Assembly (NCBI GenBank): GCA_025765595.1
Contig: JAIVFH010000054.1
Location: 124,001-188,000, forward strand
From: Obelidium mucronatum
Lineage: Eukaryota > Chytridiomycota > Chytridiomycetes > Chytridiales > Chytriomycetaceae
Direction of reading: 5' to 3'
Length of the DNA: 64,000 bases
The translations under genes and the position numbers were made by a program. A model generated the notes under the pieces. That model was not told the DNA's origin, made no database searches, and was given only the letters and a program-made list of their open reading frames with translations. Of this stretch, positions 54,944 through 62,957 are shown in pieces (the stretch's first letter is position 1; each line of letters opens with the position of its first letter).

Positions 54944-56638
54944 TCAAGATTCCTGTGCATCAACAAATGACTCTTCACAATCCGTTTCACTTCCCGTATT
55001 GTCATCACCGTCCTCATCTTTTTTTTCATCTTCTTTGTCATCGTTGTCTGAAGCTACAATTGTGTCATTCAATGAGATTTGAGAAACTTGCTTTTCAAGC
55101 GGCTCCATTTTCTTTGGCAAGTGAAGAGGAGCTGCTGACAAGAGTTTTCGAATAATCCCTGGGTTTTTGCATTCACGCACAACTTCTTCCATGAGCTTAG
55201 GAAACTTGGAGACTACTGCCAACGCTTCGGATACATTGTATGGGGTTACTTGAATAACAGCGGCTGGAAGGTTGAATGGAGGGAGTGATTCTCCTCTTGA
55301 TGTGACTGCGTAAATTCGAATGTGAAACTAGACAACATGAATTTCGTTTTTAGTAAGCGGTTGCGAAATTTTTTTTTTGGGCGGAAGTCATACCTTATGC
55401 TCAATGTGGATCCTATTTGCGAATTGACCGGATGGGTTGATGCCTAAGGGTTTCTTGTCAAAGATGGACTTTGCTGTTGGAATCCGGGCTGCAAGAGAGG
55501 GTACATCAAATGACAGCTAAAAGAAATATATATTACAAAACGATAATACAAAGACACCCATAGTTTCGTCTTCTTTCCTACTCACTTGTTGAATGGCTTC
55601 CCAAAATTCTCCCTCTGTGTCTTCTGTTCCTTTCCAAACCAACAATTCCTGGGCCAAGTATTTTCTGTCTAGTGTTGTCCCACTCATCAAGTTGGTTAAA
55701 TCAATTTTTTTTGCATCTTGATTGTTTTTTTGCTGATTGTATTGGCTCCGTTGTCCATCTGACGTTGTTGATGCTGTTATTCCAACACCTTGAATTTCCT
55801 CTAACCAAACACGGACAGACGAGATTCGAACTCGAGCAAGAGGTTTTGGGCGAATTTGGAACTCAAATTTGACCTTGTCTCCAGGACCAAAGATGGTGGA
55901 TGACAGACGCGCATTGTACTCAAAATTGTGACCCACACCCAGTTCTTCATTTTCAGAAAAGATGTCAGTCTCGGAGGACCATATTTTACAATTGTTATCG
56001 GAAAGTAGTATGCTTTTTAGAGCGGCTGGAGTATATCTGATGATTTCAACAGGGCATGTAATTCTAGTGGTTGATAGGAATAGCCGTTCGTATGCAGAAT
56101 TAACTATTTTAACGTATGGAATCATTTCGAAGTTTCGGTGTATCGGGGCTTTGCTGACACGAGTGCCTATTTGCACATCCACCACTATCTGATACGAGAT
56201 TCTTGCACCAAACCCCCATTCTGGATTTGATGCTGAGATTGATTCATGAATTTTGTGTACACCGCCCCATGATATAGGGAATACGAATGGAATATCCCAT
56301 CGACTGAGCGTCGTATTCCACATGTGTTGTTGAGGATTATTTGTATTATCGTCGGCATAAAATTCAGTAGGCCCAAGAGTCAAGAATCCAAAGGCCTCAT
56401 ACGGACTATGTTTTCGGGCATCGCCATTAGAGGTGAATATTTTGCCCTCTAGGGACGCTGTGACGCTGACAAGAGGTTGAGTTGTTTTGATCCGGATGAC
56501 ACCCTCTACGCGGATGTTGTTCGTGAGGCCAAGGTACCCGTCAACTAATTCCACTAAATTTGAATCTCCATCTTTAGCTACGATCTGCACTTCAGCCGAC
56601 TGTCTAAGTTGATTCACGACCAATTCGAAAATTGTCAT
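54944..56638 (-). CDS. Arrestin-like protein
   Basis: Exons 56638-55586, 55516-55394 and 55327-54944 (519 residues). Predicted two-lobed beta fold. N-lobe: VEGVIRIKTTQPLVSVTASL, a typical arrestin strand pair; DIPFVFPISWGGVHKIHESI; YQIVVDVQIGTRVSKAPIH. C-lobe: FGPGDKVKFEFQIRPKPLAR and VRVWLEEIQGV. The tail is acidic (DNDDKEDEKKDEDGDDN). Fungal alpha-arrestins adapt membrane transporters to the Rsp5 ligase, but no PPxY motif is seen here, so a conventional Rsp5 adaptor role is not shown. Confidence 0.72.
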
Positions 56639-57222: not shown

Positions 57223-58981
57223 ATGCGGCTGTGCCTTAAGCAGCTGTGCCCCGTCTTACTTCTGTCAGCAAGTGTTACTGCAGCACCTCCAAGAAATGGT
57301 TCGATTCCAGATGCTTTCGGTAGGAAGATGACGGATTCAAGAGCGTGGGACGAGGCGGTGTTTTTGACTCACAACCCCCCCATTTTGTACAGTCGACTTG
57401 AACGTATACCTTCGGCCCAGTCAAGTAACCATCTTCGACATTTGCGGAACTTGCAATGATACCATTGGGTCACCACCAGCAGGCTGTAACGCTGCGCTTG
57501 TGGCCAAAGAGTGCAGCTACATCCCAGGTCGAATAGGACGAAACGGTGCTGCTATTGGAACTATTCATTCACTCCTCGGGAACAATATTATAATTCAATT
57601 CAATTACGATAGCTGGGCAAATCGCAAAATGGAGTTTTACCTTGTGGTGAGAGAGAGGAGAGAGAGAGAGATAGACTTGACGACGCTCATTATGAAGCAA
57701 AACGGACACAAAAAAAATACAGCAAACAGCAGTATCTGGTCTTGGATCCACATTTCAGCCGATTTCTTTATCCGATTACAAGAATCCGAATGACCCACTG
57801 CCTGGCTCTTTTTTCCCACAGGACAAGGGCCACAACCCAGCCTCATTTGTCATGCAAGTACCGCCCCGAATCGCATTAGGGAGTGGATATGCCGTTATTT
57901 ATAAAGTAAGTCTTTGTAAAGACCAAATGGATTCTAACCTTCGTTTTAGTATTATCTTGAAAAAAGCACTTCAGTCTACAACAGCAGCACACTCACACAC
58001 CTAACAATTGACCAAGATTACTCTACCTGGGTTGTCCCTATGCAATCCCCCCTATCTTCTAACCCCAGTCCAACCGGTAACTCTACTGGAACACAAGACG
58101 GCTCAAGCAACCTTGTGCAAACTGCATGGACGGCTGTTATAGTATCGCTGGTTGTACTGGCTCTCATTATGACTGTTTGTGGGTTCTGGTTTGGTCGATA
58201 TGCTAAACGGCGGAAGGAAGGATCTGGCATTGTTGGTGGTGGTGATGGTGGCGTGGGTGATTCGACCGATGGTTTTGTTGGAAACACTTCGACGATGGCA
58301 ACGATGAGATCATACGGCTCACGCGAAATGGCCATGATGAACTATATCCCCGATGAAAACCAGTTCTTGACTGCCAGTACCGGATTCGATTCTCGCGGAA
58401 CATATGGACGGAATAGCAGCCACGGGAGAAGTTTATACGATGGACACAATAGTGATGATGAAGTCGTTATATATCGAAAAAGTGTCGATAAGTTGAGGTC
58501 ATATGCTGGATCCGTGGCGAGTGGGGTTTCTGGCGGGAGTGCGGGCACCAATGGATCTCAACCTAAATCGATCCTCAAGAGGAGGGAAGATGTGGAGCGG
58601 GAAGCGTTGGAAGCTCAGTTGTATGATCCCGTTGTTATTGGTCTTCACAATATGCAACGTGGGAACGCAAATTTGGGCGGAGGTGTTCATTCTGTTCCTC
58701 ATGGTGTATCTCCTGCAAAGAAGGTTGTGAAGTTCAAGGATCATATTGAGTCGCCGTTATTTGACTATGCTGTCCCTGGCATTTCAAATACTTCGATTCC
58801 TGAGGGGTTGTTTGTAGACGAAGGGGAAGGAGATAATGCATTTGATGACAGCAATTTACAATTTAATGATGGAGGAAAAGAACGAGACGTGGGTAATATT
58901 CTGGGGAAAGCGGTGCATGTAGACGAAGACGATGATGAATACAACTCAGACGTATCAGATGGTTGGCGTAAAGAGCATTGA
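57223..58981 (+). CDS. Type I membrane protein with SILK and RVxF motifs (triplet member 1)
   Basis: Exons 57223-57319, 57393-57646, 57822-57905 and 57950-58981 (488 residues). Signal peptide RLCLKQLCPVLLLSASVTAA. The ectodomain has VTIFDICGTC and N-glycosylation sequons and ends STWVVP. TM helix about 205-227 (WTAVIVSLVVLALIMTVCGF). The cytosolic tail holds SILK (about residue 352, 58568-58579), then QLYDP, KVVKF (about 403, 58721-58735), FNDGG and the end SDVSDGWRKEH. SILK followed by [RK]x(0,1)[VI]x[FW] is the docking pair of PP1 regulators. The two downstream genes share every block. Role inferred: membrane-bound PP1-recruiting receptor-like protein. Confidence 0.78.
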
Positions 58982-59040
58982 AAAATAGAACTGTTCACAG
59001 GCACGTTGTTCATGTTCAAGTAGAAAAAAAATCTATCGAA

Positions 59041-60535
59041 ATGCCGTTGTACTCATTTGTGCTACTGGCACTGCTGGCACCGCATGTGCTCTCCCAACGG
59101 CGGGCTCCTGTAGGATCAACACCACCTGACTGTAAGCAACTCTTCTGTTGTCATCCTTCTTGGCAATTGCCTGCTGCTTGAGAGCCAATTTAAACTCTTG
59201 ACACCCTAGTCGCTGTAATGGTCCCTCTCCAGGCAACCGTCTTCGATATTTGCGAGATTTGCTTAGTTGTCAAAAATAACCCGACGACTCTTGTCCCCGC
59301 CTGTGTTGCCGAAGCATTGGGCGGGCGAGTGAGCGATGAATGCGGAGTGGGAAAGGCCTACCCTCTCCATGTAATCCCTGGCTCTCAATTCAACATCAGC
59401 ATTGAGTACGGTGCGCTGGCATCGAAGCTAGTGACTTTTGGGCTGGAGTCTGTGAGTTCCCCTTCTTTTTTTGCCGTGTTGTTTGTCCTGGGCTTGTGTT
59501 GGTGTTGTTTTGTCCCGCCACTCACAAAAAAAAAACACCCACACCCACATCCAGAGCGCTGCCTCGGCAAACTTTACTCCTCTCATGAATGTAAATCCTC
59601 AAGCGCAAGGTCGCTCGCCGTTCCTCGTATCGCTTTGGATCCCTCCCAGCGCCGACACATTTGGTGGTGGAAATGGTCTCGTCTATCGATACTTTCAAAA
59701 CGAAACATCATCCAACTACACGACGTACTCTCTCAGGAATATAACTCTGGATCGGTCCACGAATTTCTGGGTAGCACCACCACGAGCGTCTCCTTCCCCA
59801 TCACCAAGTCCCCCGGATTCTGGAAGTCCTGCGCAGTCTGTTTGGACTTATGTTGCGGCTGCCATTGTTATTGGTGCACTCTTGTTTACTGGGATTGCTT
59901 GGTTTATTAATAGCCGTCGAGTCAAGAATGCTGTTGACAATGACGTTGAGTCTGTGAAGGACTACGGGCCTCCACAAATGCATCAAACGACAGAAGGAGG
60001 AAATTCGGATGGACGAATGCCTGATTTGGATGACGATGACGAGGAAGGTGACATCAAAATCGTGTACAAGAAGTCAGTCGACGGAGGGTATACTGCGTCT
60101 GTAAGCAGTGGCAGAAGTAGTACGAGTGGAAACCGACTTCAGTCAATCTTGAAAAATAGACAGCAAGTAGAGGATGAAATGGTGACGACACAAATGTACG
60201 ATGTCAATTTATTGGAAATTCAGCAACAGCAGCAACAGCAACACGGCGTTAGCACGAGCAATCATCATGATGCGTCTGGAGCGGGGAAGAAGGTGGTTTT
60301 TAAAGAAACGGTTGAGATTGCTGTGGAAGATAGTCCAGCCCTGGGTCCAAAAGTTGGAGGTGGTTTGTTTGGGGATTCGGAAGTGAATGATGATAGCAGT
60401 TTAGATTCATTAACACCACATTTTAATGATGGTGGTGTTGAGAAGGGAATGAGGGAAGTGCTGCGCCAGAATGTTTTAGATGACAACGAGTCCGTTTCGT
60501 CGGATGTTTCTGATGGGTGGCGAAAAGAGCAGTAG
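59041..60535 (+). CDS. Type I membrane protein with SILK and RVxF motifs (triplet member 2)
   Basis: Exons 59041-59131, 59210-59451 and 59555-60535 (437 residues). Signal peptide LYSFVLLALLAPHVLS. Ectodomain with ATVFDICEIC, several NxT/S sites and STNFWVAP before a Pro/Ser stalk. TM about 207-229 (VWTYVAAAIVIGALLFTGIA). Tail: acidic run, SILK (about 308, 60143-60154), QMYD, a Gln run, KVVF (about 357, 60290-60301), HFNDGGVEKGMREVL and the end SSDVSDGWRKEQ. It lacks the third intron of the other two. It starts 60 bp after member 1. Confidence 0.8.
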
Positions 60536-60641
60536 CGACGCTAATCAATGTCGCTTCAGTCTCCCATTTCTTCCTTCTCTATGTTCGTAAAGTAATAAAC
60601 CATTCCCCGTTTTTTTGTTATTACACCCGAAAAATTGGGAG

Positions 60642-62372
60642 ATGCTGTTTCTGCTCCTTGTCACTGGATCCCATGTCGACAGCTTGCCAGGTTAGACGCA
60701 TGTCCGCCTGCCTCCTCTCACACAAATTTAACTAACAACACTACCTTTGCAGCGTCTCCAACTCAGGCAACGCCATTGACGCTTGGGATAAGTGCAACCC
60801 TTGCCCCAGGCCAAACCACCTACTTTGATCTCTGCACAACATGCATTATAACGGACGAAATCGGAACTCTGATCTTGACGGAAGCATGTGCACCCTTGGG
60901 AGACAGTGGGCTCTACGACTTTGAGGCCGAGTGTGGTCCCAACGGACAACGGTCAATTTATGTTCTTCCCGGATCCAGTATCAACACAAAGATTCTATAC
61001 AACCCTCGAGTGGCTAACATGACTCAATTTGCTCTGCGGTATCACTTTCCGGTACGTGTGTGTTTTTTGGTGCCCAAAATCAATTTGTGTGGTTGTTGCC
61101 AAACAAGAAGGGCCCTGTTTAACACTCGCTTTTTTTTTTTCCGCCTACCACCCTCCTCTTACCCTCCAGGATTATATCAATAGCACAGATCAACCATGGA
61201 CGGATACTGTGCTGGATAATGCTCCCTTCTATCCTGCCGATTTGGGGCATGCGCCAGTCTACCACACATTGACGATACCAAAAAACATCTTGAACCGAAC
61301 GTGGGCGTACGACTATGGATATTTCCAACTTGGATACTTTGTTAGTATAGTTAACTTATATACTTGTTTTGAGTTCTTTGTCTTTTAACTCGGTTTTTTT
61401 TTTGTTGAAATTTTTTTTTTTTTTACTCAGACTTTCGGAAAAACACAACAACCAAGCGACTTTATCCTCCGAGTAGTACGAAACGTGAGCATAGACACAA
61501 CAAACGAATACTGGATCGCACCGCCACCAGCAATCCCCGACCCGACGGATTCAGCAACAGATTCAGATATACCCAACAACAACGCACCAACAACAATAAC
61601 AAATCAATACGTCTACGTCACTATAATATCCGTGCTCATTGGAATAGCAATTCTATTCACAATCATTGGATACATTGTAATCCAACGGAAACGGAAAACC
61701 AAAAACCGGATTGGCGATTCGCCGTCCTCTGAAGAACTGACGGATCTACCACCCAAAACGTCTATGCAAATGATTCCGGATTTGGATGATTTCGATGATG
61801 ATGATGATGCGGGGGTGATTGTGTATGTGAAGCAACGTGGGGGTGCGTATACGCCTTCCATGAATAGTCGCGGCGGTGCTGGTGGTACTAGTGGTGGTGG
61901 TAGTATTGGGTCTTATCCGCGATCTATTTTGAAGTCGAGTAAACAGGTGCAAGAGGAGACGATTGCAGCGCAAATGTATAACCCGGATCCGATGGTAGCG
62001 ATGCAGCAGCAGCAACAGCAGCATGAACATGTGGAATCAGGCAATTCTAGAAAAAGTGATGGAAATGAGGATGGTGGAAAGCTTGTTTCAGCGAAAAAAG
62101 TGTTCTTCAAGGAAACTGTTGAGTTGGCTGTTGTGGACATGTCCATGCCACCTGCTATTGGAGCGATACCGAATGGATTGTTTGATGATTCTGATTCTGA
62201 ATATGATGATGAAGTGGATGAAGATGGGGAAGACTTTGTTCACTTTAATGACGGAGGTGTGGAGAAGGGAATCAGGGAGATTTTGGGTAAAGCAGTTCAA
62301 GTGGATGAGGATGAGGAAGAAGACGGCGAAGACAACAGTAGTGATGTTGGCGACGATTGGAGGAAAGAGTAG
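60642..62372 (+). CDS. Type I membrane protein with SILK and RVxF motifs (triplet member 3)
   Basis: Exons 60642-60690, 60753-61051, 61170-61340 and 61431-62372 (486 residues). The signal peptide is short (MLFLLLVTGSHVDS). Ectodomain: TTYFDLCTTC, further Cys pairs, NxT/S sites and NEYWIAP. TM about 233-257 (VYVTIISVLIGIAILFTIIG). Tail: SILK (about 338, 61923-61934), QMYNPDP, a Gln run, KVFF (about 396, 62097-62108), HFNDGGVEKGIREILGKAV, acidic stretch and the end SSDVGDDWRKE. The start codon was chosen because it gives the signal peptide; the longer upstream frame does not. Confidence 0.8.
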
Positions 62373-62723
62373 CCCTTGCTCTTCATTTTTATTGACACTG
62401 TTCAAGTGGGTTTTCAAAATGGCCTCTTAATCTATCTACTGTTGCAAAACGCTTTGCCTCGAATTCCCTTTCTTTGAGAGAGTTATTAGATCATTTAAAT
62501 AGATTTTTTCTTTTTTATTATTTAAGAAGAATGGATTCTGAACTTTTTTGATGTTCTGTGGAGGTGTACACAAGAACACCAAATCTACCAGCCACAAAAT
62601 TGAATCAACTCAAAAAGAGAAAAATGGAACACATTGACAAAAAAAATATCTTGCAGCTTCAATTTGGAACCACTCAGTCACTCCTTGGCTATAAGTCCGT
62701 CAAGACAACAACTCGATCATACT
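62373..62723. other. Intergenic region
   Basis: AT-rich, with weak overlapping open frames (from about 62624) that do not look like a family protein. It may hold the 5' exon or promoter of the small membrane protein that follows; an ATCTTGCAG at about 62648-62656 resembles an acceptor. Confidence 0.45.
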
Positions 62724-62957
62724 ATGTACCGAATACTGAAGAGAGACAACACGACAAAGACGAGTCAAGTAGTGTTTTCGTCAATTTTCTTGTCGTGTTT
62801 CGCTATTGCCATCTTGATGGTCATTGTTGCTCTGTTTCGGCGTTGGAGGAACAGGGGGGATGCCACAAAAGACAAGAAATCACCACAAGGACGTGTGCCA
62901 TACACGAGAATTGATGAGAGCGACAAGTTTCCTGGAACTTATCAATCCTTGGCGTAA
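62724..62957 (+). CDS. Small single-pass membrane protein
   Basis: 77 residues from the ATG at 62724: a short polar N-terminus, one TM helix (VFSSIFLSCFAIAILMVIVA), then an RRWR stop-transfer and a polar tail ending in YTRIDESDKFPGTYQSLA. The frame is open further upstream without an ATG, so an additional 5' exon is possible. An overlapping frame is less protein-like. Tail tyrosines (PYTR, TYQS) are notable. No family recognised. Confidence 0.5.
   Translation: MYRILKRDNTTKTSQVVFSSIFLSCFAIAILMVIVALFRRWRNRGDATKDKKSPQGRVPYTRIDESDKFPGTYQSLA

Follow-up and report, generated by a model that had tools for sequence, protein, structure and literature searches.

The window analysed here is a stretch of 64,000 nucleotides from a contig of the chytrid Obelidium mucronatum (Chytridiomycota, Chytriomycetaceae; assembly of 48.3 Mb). 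Its positions 57223-62372 are filled by a head-to-tail triplet of spliced genes, from the ATG of gene 1 at 57223 to the stop codon of gene 3, which ends at 62372. We propose, with a probability of about 0.66, that the three products are single-pass membrane glycoproteins acting as targeting subunits of protein phosphatase-1 (PP1), the cytosolic tail holding the enzyme bivalently through a SILK and an RVxF-type motif. Outside the cell or in a lumen there would be a module of four cysteines and an ectodomain rich in beta structure, followed by one transmembrane (TM) helix and a disordered tail in the cytosol. SILK would occupy the SILK pocket of PP1, and K-x-V-x-F, about 40-53 residues away, its hydrophobic RVxF groove. 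Gripped at two points of a disordered tail, PP1 would stay beside the membrane, near its substrates, and the remaining conserved parts of the tail (helix behind SILK, DGG block, SDVxDxWR) might select substrates or recruit a second partner. That PP1 is bound, how the proteins are oriented, where they reside and whether a ligand gates them is what we infer from the evidence below.

The motif pair in the tails

In each protein, a hydrophobic N-terminus (judged by eye) and sequons for N-glycosylation accompany a single strong TM segment; around residue 31, gene 2 has another hydrophobic segment, which is weaker (sliding-window mean up to 1.91). All three ectodomains contain [FY]D[IL]CxxC, and the tails present, in a constant order, SILK, Q[LM]Y[DN], [KR]x(0,1)VxF, FNDGG and SDV[SG]D[GD]WRKE. 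The architecture claimed in an earlier, sequence-only reading of this DNA (ectodomain with the cysteine motif, one TM segment, ordered tail blocks) was thus recovered in genes 1-3. The similar spacing of the two motifs was found as well, the RVxF-type motif starting 47, 44 and 53 residues after the end of SILK in genes 1, 2 and 3, respectively. The order, described in that reading as the known one, agrees with PMC3792071, where SILK N-terminal to RVxF is given as a rule.

Outside Obelidium, the protein searches turned up relatives in Siphonaria, Podochytrium and Rhizoclosmatium alone, all three of them genera of Chytriomycetaceae. Six of 7997 scored candidates matched; the tail of P0006 used as query returned 5 of 524 candidates and the ectodomain of P0005 returned 3 of 2228, the queries themselves being counted. 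No ectodomain devoid of the tail was seen in these searches, which require shared 5-residue words. A triplet was seen in Obelidium only, the other genera having one protein each and Siphonaria two similar ones, as far as searches of proteins rather than genomes can tell. Since P0001 and P0002 are identical to genes 2 and 1, they were left out, and the set compared below comprises genes 1-3 and four relatives (P0003-P0006).

No homologue had lost SILK and RVxF, a loss that would speak against docking. All seven members, from four genera, keep both: SILK is present in 7/7 and K-x-V-x-F in 7/7, with K, V and F invariant and both x positions variable (VK, KV, KF, MS, FS). In the relatives, SILK is followed after 40-43 residues by KMVSF or KFVSF, so that SILK stands 40-53 residues N-terminal to the RVxF-type motif throughout the family. 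Three published RVxF patterns, taken as quoted in PMC3792071, accept 7/7 (Wakula), 5/7 (Hendrickx) and 4/7 (Meiselbach) of these motifs. An acidic residue is found two places past the motif in all seven sequences, which fits the acidic flank of RVxF described in PMC3792071. In an unrooted tree, gene 1 groups with the four relatives, apart from genes 2 and 3 (support 100/99), so that the motifs were retained over an old or a fast divergence, across which the tails are 32-38% identical.

We next consider chance. A SILK followed 7-107 residues on by a lax RVxF occurred in 0.0002-0.0007 of shuffled tails (20,000 shuffles per tail). When the 159 gapless tail columns of the seven sequences were permuted 200,000 times, 3 permutations put SILK in every row, 1555 put RVxF there and 0 did both; this is an indication rather than a probability, because the clustering of conserved columns is ignored. 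The SILK codons of the three copies differ at silent positions (TCG ATC CTC AAG, TCA ATC TTG AAA and TCT ATT TTG AAG in genes 1 to 3), and the identity of this motif is therefore not the product of recent copying. A PhiPhi motif is expected 5-8 residues after RVxF. At this place some rows have two hydrophobic residues (LF, VV, LV) and others do not, as judged by eye.

The last x of the RVxF-type motif is Ser in 4/4 relatives (3 genera) and K, V and F in Obelidium genes 1-3. More than half of RVxF regulators have S or T at the x, and phosphorylation there weakens binding (PMC10066265). A switch by phosphorylation at this residue may thus be open to the relatives but not to Obelidium, whose three copies (coordinates in Table 1) could have lost it.

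PP1, inhibitor-2 and competing readings of the tail

A search of the genome for calcineurin-like phosphatases gave 48 matches. Among six loci whose frames were examined, two (L015 and L017, on contigs C1 and C449) encode PP1 and are 98.7% identical over 1688 aligned bases. As these copies differ by frame in one exon, the PP1 exon pieces used are a composite of the two contigs; they match PP1 chains of known structure over the full length, the best being a chain named 'PP1-2'. At 16 of the 16 docking positions checked, the expected residue was found. Nine of them are positions that we take to form the RVxF groove (I169, L243, F257, R261, V264, L289, M290, C291 and F293). The other seven, E54, E56, N86, D166, E167, D242 and E287, were checked according to PMC10066265. 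Both docking sites are conserved in fungal PP1 (PMC8836105; fungal phosphatases are reviewed in PMC6506691).

Inhibitor-2 is encoded in the genome as well (L037, G000:C324:15472-16054), by a gene whose PF04979 match scores 27.2 bits for a cut-off of 25. It carries MSASLPPPKKGILK, with HYNMKERL in another exon, and GILK within PPPKKGILK, and SILK-type docking is therefore probably in use in Obelidium. C10 bears a second, weaker copy. Phosphatase matches came in pairs of equal or near-equal score (C10/C193, C17/C570, C1/C449), which suggests retained haplotypes; the triplet was matched once.

Of the docking and tethering of PP1 put forward in the sequence-only reading, docking has gained support beyond the bare motifs: both are present in 7/7 sequences at the residues that PP1 reads, the pocket residues checked in PP1 are conserved, and inhibitor-2 has GILK; the part that did not stand as firmly is gene 3, whose KVFF is marginal. 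From the TM segment onward, predicted confidence (pLDDT) of the tails was below 50, bar three residues in one of two models. Such values would be expected of a disordered docking tail, and shallow alignments give low values too.

Several observations weigh against PP1 targeting. The Hendrickx pattern rejects gene 3 and P0006, the Meiselbach pattern gene 2, gene 3 and P0006, and KVFF of gene 3 is a doubtful RVxF ligand of PP1. The sample spans four genera only, and its seven sequences are not independent, because P0003 and P0004 come from one Siphonaria strain (tails 86% identical). The two motifs account for 7 of the 25 invariant gapless tail columns, so that the tail is under other constraints as well: invariance in 7/7 extends to residues of the helix that follows SILK and, at 58862-58975 in gene 1 and the corresponding stretches of genes 2 and 3, to the DGG block and the SDV..WR at the C-terminus, none of which PP1 docking explains. 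The affinity of inhibitor-3 is little altered by loss of its non-canonical SILK (PMC10066265), and the SILK of the inner nuclear membrane protein LAP1B (TOR1AIP1) was shown not to mediate PP1 binding (PMC3792071). By analogy, LAP1B warns that a SILK in a membrane protein may be idle, although there the SILK lacks conservation and breaks the usual order.

The tail could instead, or in addition, be a substrate, PP1 dephosphorylating its serine-rich acidic sequence and so resetting the protein. This is compatible with targeting and seems to us possible, if clearly less probable. Serine and acidic blocks surround the motifs (DGHNSDDE in gene 1 and its orthologues, the terminal SDV in 7/7), the same has been proposed for polycystin-1 and LAP1B, and cases are reported of membrane proteins to which PP1 binds through RVxF and which it dephosphorylates (PMC3366979, PMC3792071); a bivalent SILK and RVxF anchor would, however, be superfluous for a pure substrate.

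We consider it unlikely that the motifs serve another partner altogether, SILK capping the N-terminus of the following helix and K-x-V-x-F being a short strand or a sorting signal. SILK does directly precede a predicted helix (low confidence, both models), with V, E and Q invariant, the deviations of gene 3 and P0006 from the stricter patterns would suit such a role, and so would the idle SILK match of LAP1B. Against this, two motifs of one enzyme are found in their usual order and are invariant exactly where PP1 reads them, the permutations never produced the pair, and the acidic flank is present in all seven sequences.

Least probable is a membrane-tethered inhibitor or sink for PP1, with the helix or the acidic end blocking the active site. 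The inhibitory helix of inhibitor-2 is located after its RVxF motif. Although the tail shares with inhibitor-2, whose inhibitory helix spans residues 130-169 (PMC10066265), the pairing of SILK with RVxF, and has a predicted helix and an acidic end, this predicted helix lies between SILK and RVxF, HYN is present in 0/7 sequences, and PF04979 (IPP-2) matched neither the three window models (E<=5) nor P0001, P0002, P0005 and P0006 (E<=1).

Gene models, ectodomains and neighbouring frames

Features of the triplet are collected in Table 1. The tandem triplet claimed for 57223..62372 was confirmed with exact coordinates as three open, spliced proteins. Stop-to-start gaps are 59 bases between genes 1 and 2 and 106 bases between genes 2 and 3, and all introns are GT..AG (3, 2 and 3 in genes 1, 2 and 3). 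After splicing, genes 1 and 2 match the Obelidium mucronatum protein records P0002 and P0001 in every letter; gene 3 had no record of its own among the 6 matches of the protein database search. Several splice choices are possible for gene 3, of which the consensus was taken, and the alternatives alter the ectodomain only. For gene 1, a model using acceptor 57821 (488 amino acids) was dropped in favour of acceptor 57722 (521 amino acids). Both alignments and the spacing and shuffle counts were made with the 488-residue model; as the two differ in the ectodomain only, tail counts are unaffected.

Table 1. Coordinates of the triplet genes and of their motifs in the window
Feature	Positions	Strand	Basis
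Gene 1, predicted type I membrane protein, 521 amino acids	57223..58981; exons 57223-57319, 57393-57646, 57723-57905, 57950-58981	+	splice modelling, identity to P0002
FDICGTC, gene 1 ectodomain	57434..57454	+	sequence
SILK, gene 1 (residues 385-388)	58568..58579	+	sequence
KKVVKF, RVxF motif of gene 1	58718..58735	+	accepted by all three published patterns
FNDGG, gene 1	58862..58876	+	sequence
SDVSDGWRKE, gene 1 C-terminus	58946..58975	+	sequence
Gene 2, 437 amino acids	59041..60535; exons 59041-59131, 59210-59451, 59555-60535	+	identity to P0001
FDICEIC, gene 2 ectodomain	59242..59262	+	sequence
SILK, gene 2 (starts at residue 308)	60143..60154	+	sequence
GKKVVF, RVxF motif of gene 2	60284..60301	+	accepted by two of three published patterns
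FNDGG, gene 2	60422..60436	+	sequence
SDVSDGWRKE, gene 2 C-terminus	60500..60529	+	sequence
Gene 3, 486 amino acids	60642..62372; exons 60642-60690, 60753-61051, 61170-61340, 61431-62372	+	consensus splice choice among several possible
FDLCTTC, gene 3 ectodomain	60824..60844	+	sequence
SILK, gene 3 (starts at residue 338)	61923..61934	+	sequence
AKKVFF, RVxF-like motif of gene 3	62091..62108	+	accepted by loosest pattern only
FNDGG, gene 3	62244..62258	+	sequence
SDVGDDWRKE, gene 3 C-terminus	62340..62369	+	sequence

Strong divergence of the ectodomains had been claimed, and this has to be toned down: among the three copies, ectodomains are 25-31% identical and tails 32-45%, so that the former diverged merely moderately more. 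The four-cysteine module is present in genes 1-3 and P0005; it is seen in these only because P0003, P0004 and P0006 start within the ectodomain. Structure prediction gave, with low confidence, a beta-sandwich fold. No above-cut-off match was found in Pfam/NCBIfam for the triplet proteins and the relatives searched.

An exon-by-exon search of the Obelidium genome, limited to the best candidates, found no further copy beyond the triplet. Weak matches on C14, C273, C150/C51, C76, C331, C215 and C93 (E 0.004-0.4) were not accepted as relatives; frames were read for four of them (C150, C51, C76 and C331). Next to the triplet, on the minus strand (55517-56638), lies an open reading frame of 373 amino acids with a sub-threshold match to Arrestin_C (E=0.014), perhaps an alpha-arrestin. 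Directly past the triplet, at 62634-62957, a frame of 107 amino acids has one hydrophobic segment and no above-cut-off family match.

Comparison with known PP1-binding proteins

Binding of PP1 through RVxF is known from animal membrane proteins (PMC3792071, PMC3366979). Titles and abstract openings of the papers screened describe no fungal receptor-like family binding PP1, and by the same measure the papers that name Obelidium mucronatum deal with other topics. Known systems were compared as follows, LAP1B, polycystin-1, Rif1 and ELFN1/ELFN2 by description rather than by sequence. The disordered chain of inhibitor-2 (Glc8 in yeast; PF04979), like the chytrid tails, combines SILK with a motif of the RVxF type (PMC10066265), but inhibitor-2 is soluble and has an inhibitory helix, whereas these tails are membrane-bound and lack a PF04979 match. 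LAP1B, which binds PP1, is single-pass and has SILK and RVxF matches, as have the triplet proteins; it differs in being type II, with a SILK that is C-terminal to the active REVRF and deviates in mouse and rat (PMC3792071). Polycystin-1 likewise has a large ectodomain, and its cytosolic tail binds PP1 by a conserved RVxF, but it is an animal protein with 11 TM helices and no SILK (PMC3366979). Rif1 has its role in DNA replication and in the control of telomeres and is no membrane receptor. The triplet proteins may be receptors, perhaps sensing different ligands as the sequence-only reading suggested. ELFN1 and ELFN2 (PPP1R28/29) are single-pass surface proteins with a fibronectin type III (FN3) ectodomain and a PP1-binding tail; they are vertebrate proteins and have leucine-rich repeats.

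A bolder extension, to which we would give rather long odds, is that the family represents fungal receptor-type serine/threonine phosphatases by assembly. Ligand binding or clustering at an FN3-like ectodomain would control the PP1 held by the tail, the Obelidium copies being tuned by the strength of their RVxF (KVVKF, KVVF, KVFF) and the KMVSF/KFVSF relatives being switchable by phosphorylation. To our knowledge, little is known of surface signalling proteins in chytrids. If PP1 does bind, these proteins would make the membrane recruitment of a general phosphatase by a surface protein tractable in this group, and, set beside the systems above, would be a fungal family uniting receptor-like membrane architecture with a conserved SILK and RVxF pair.

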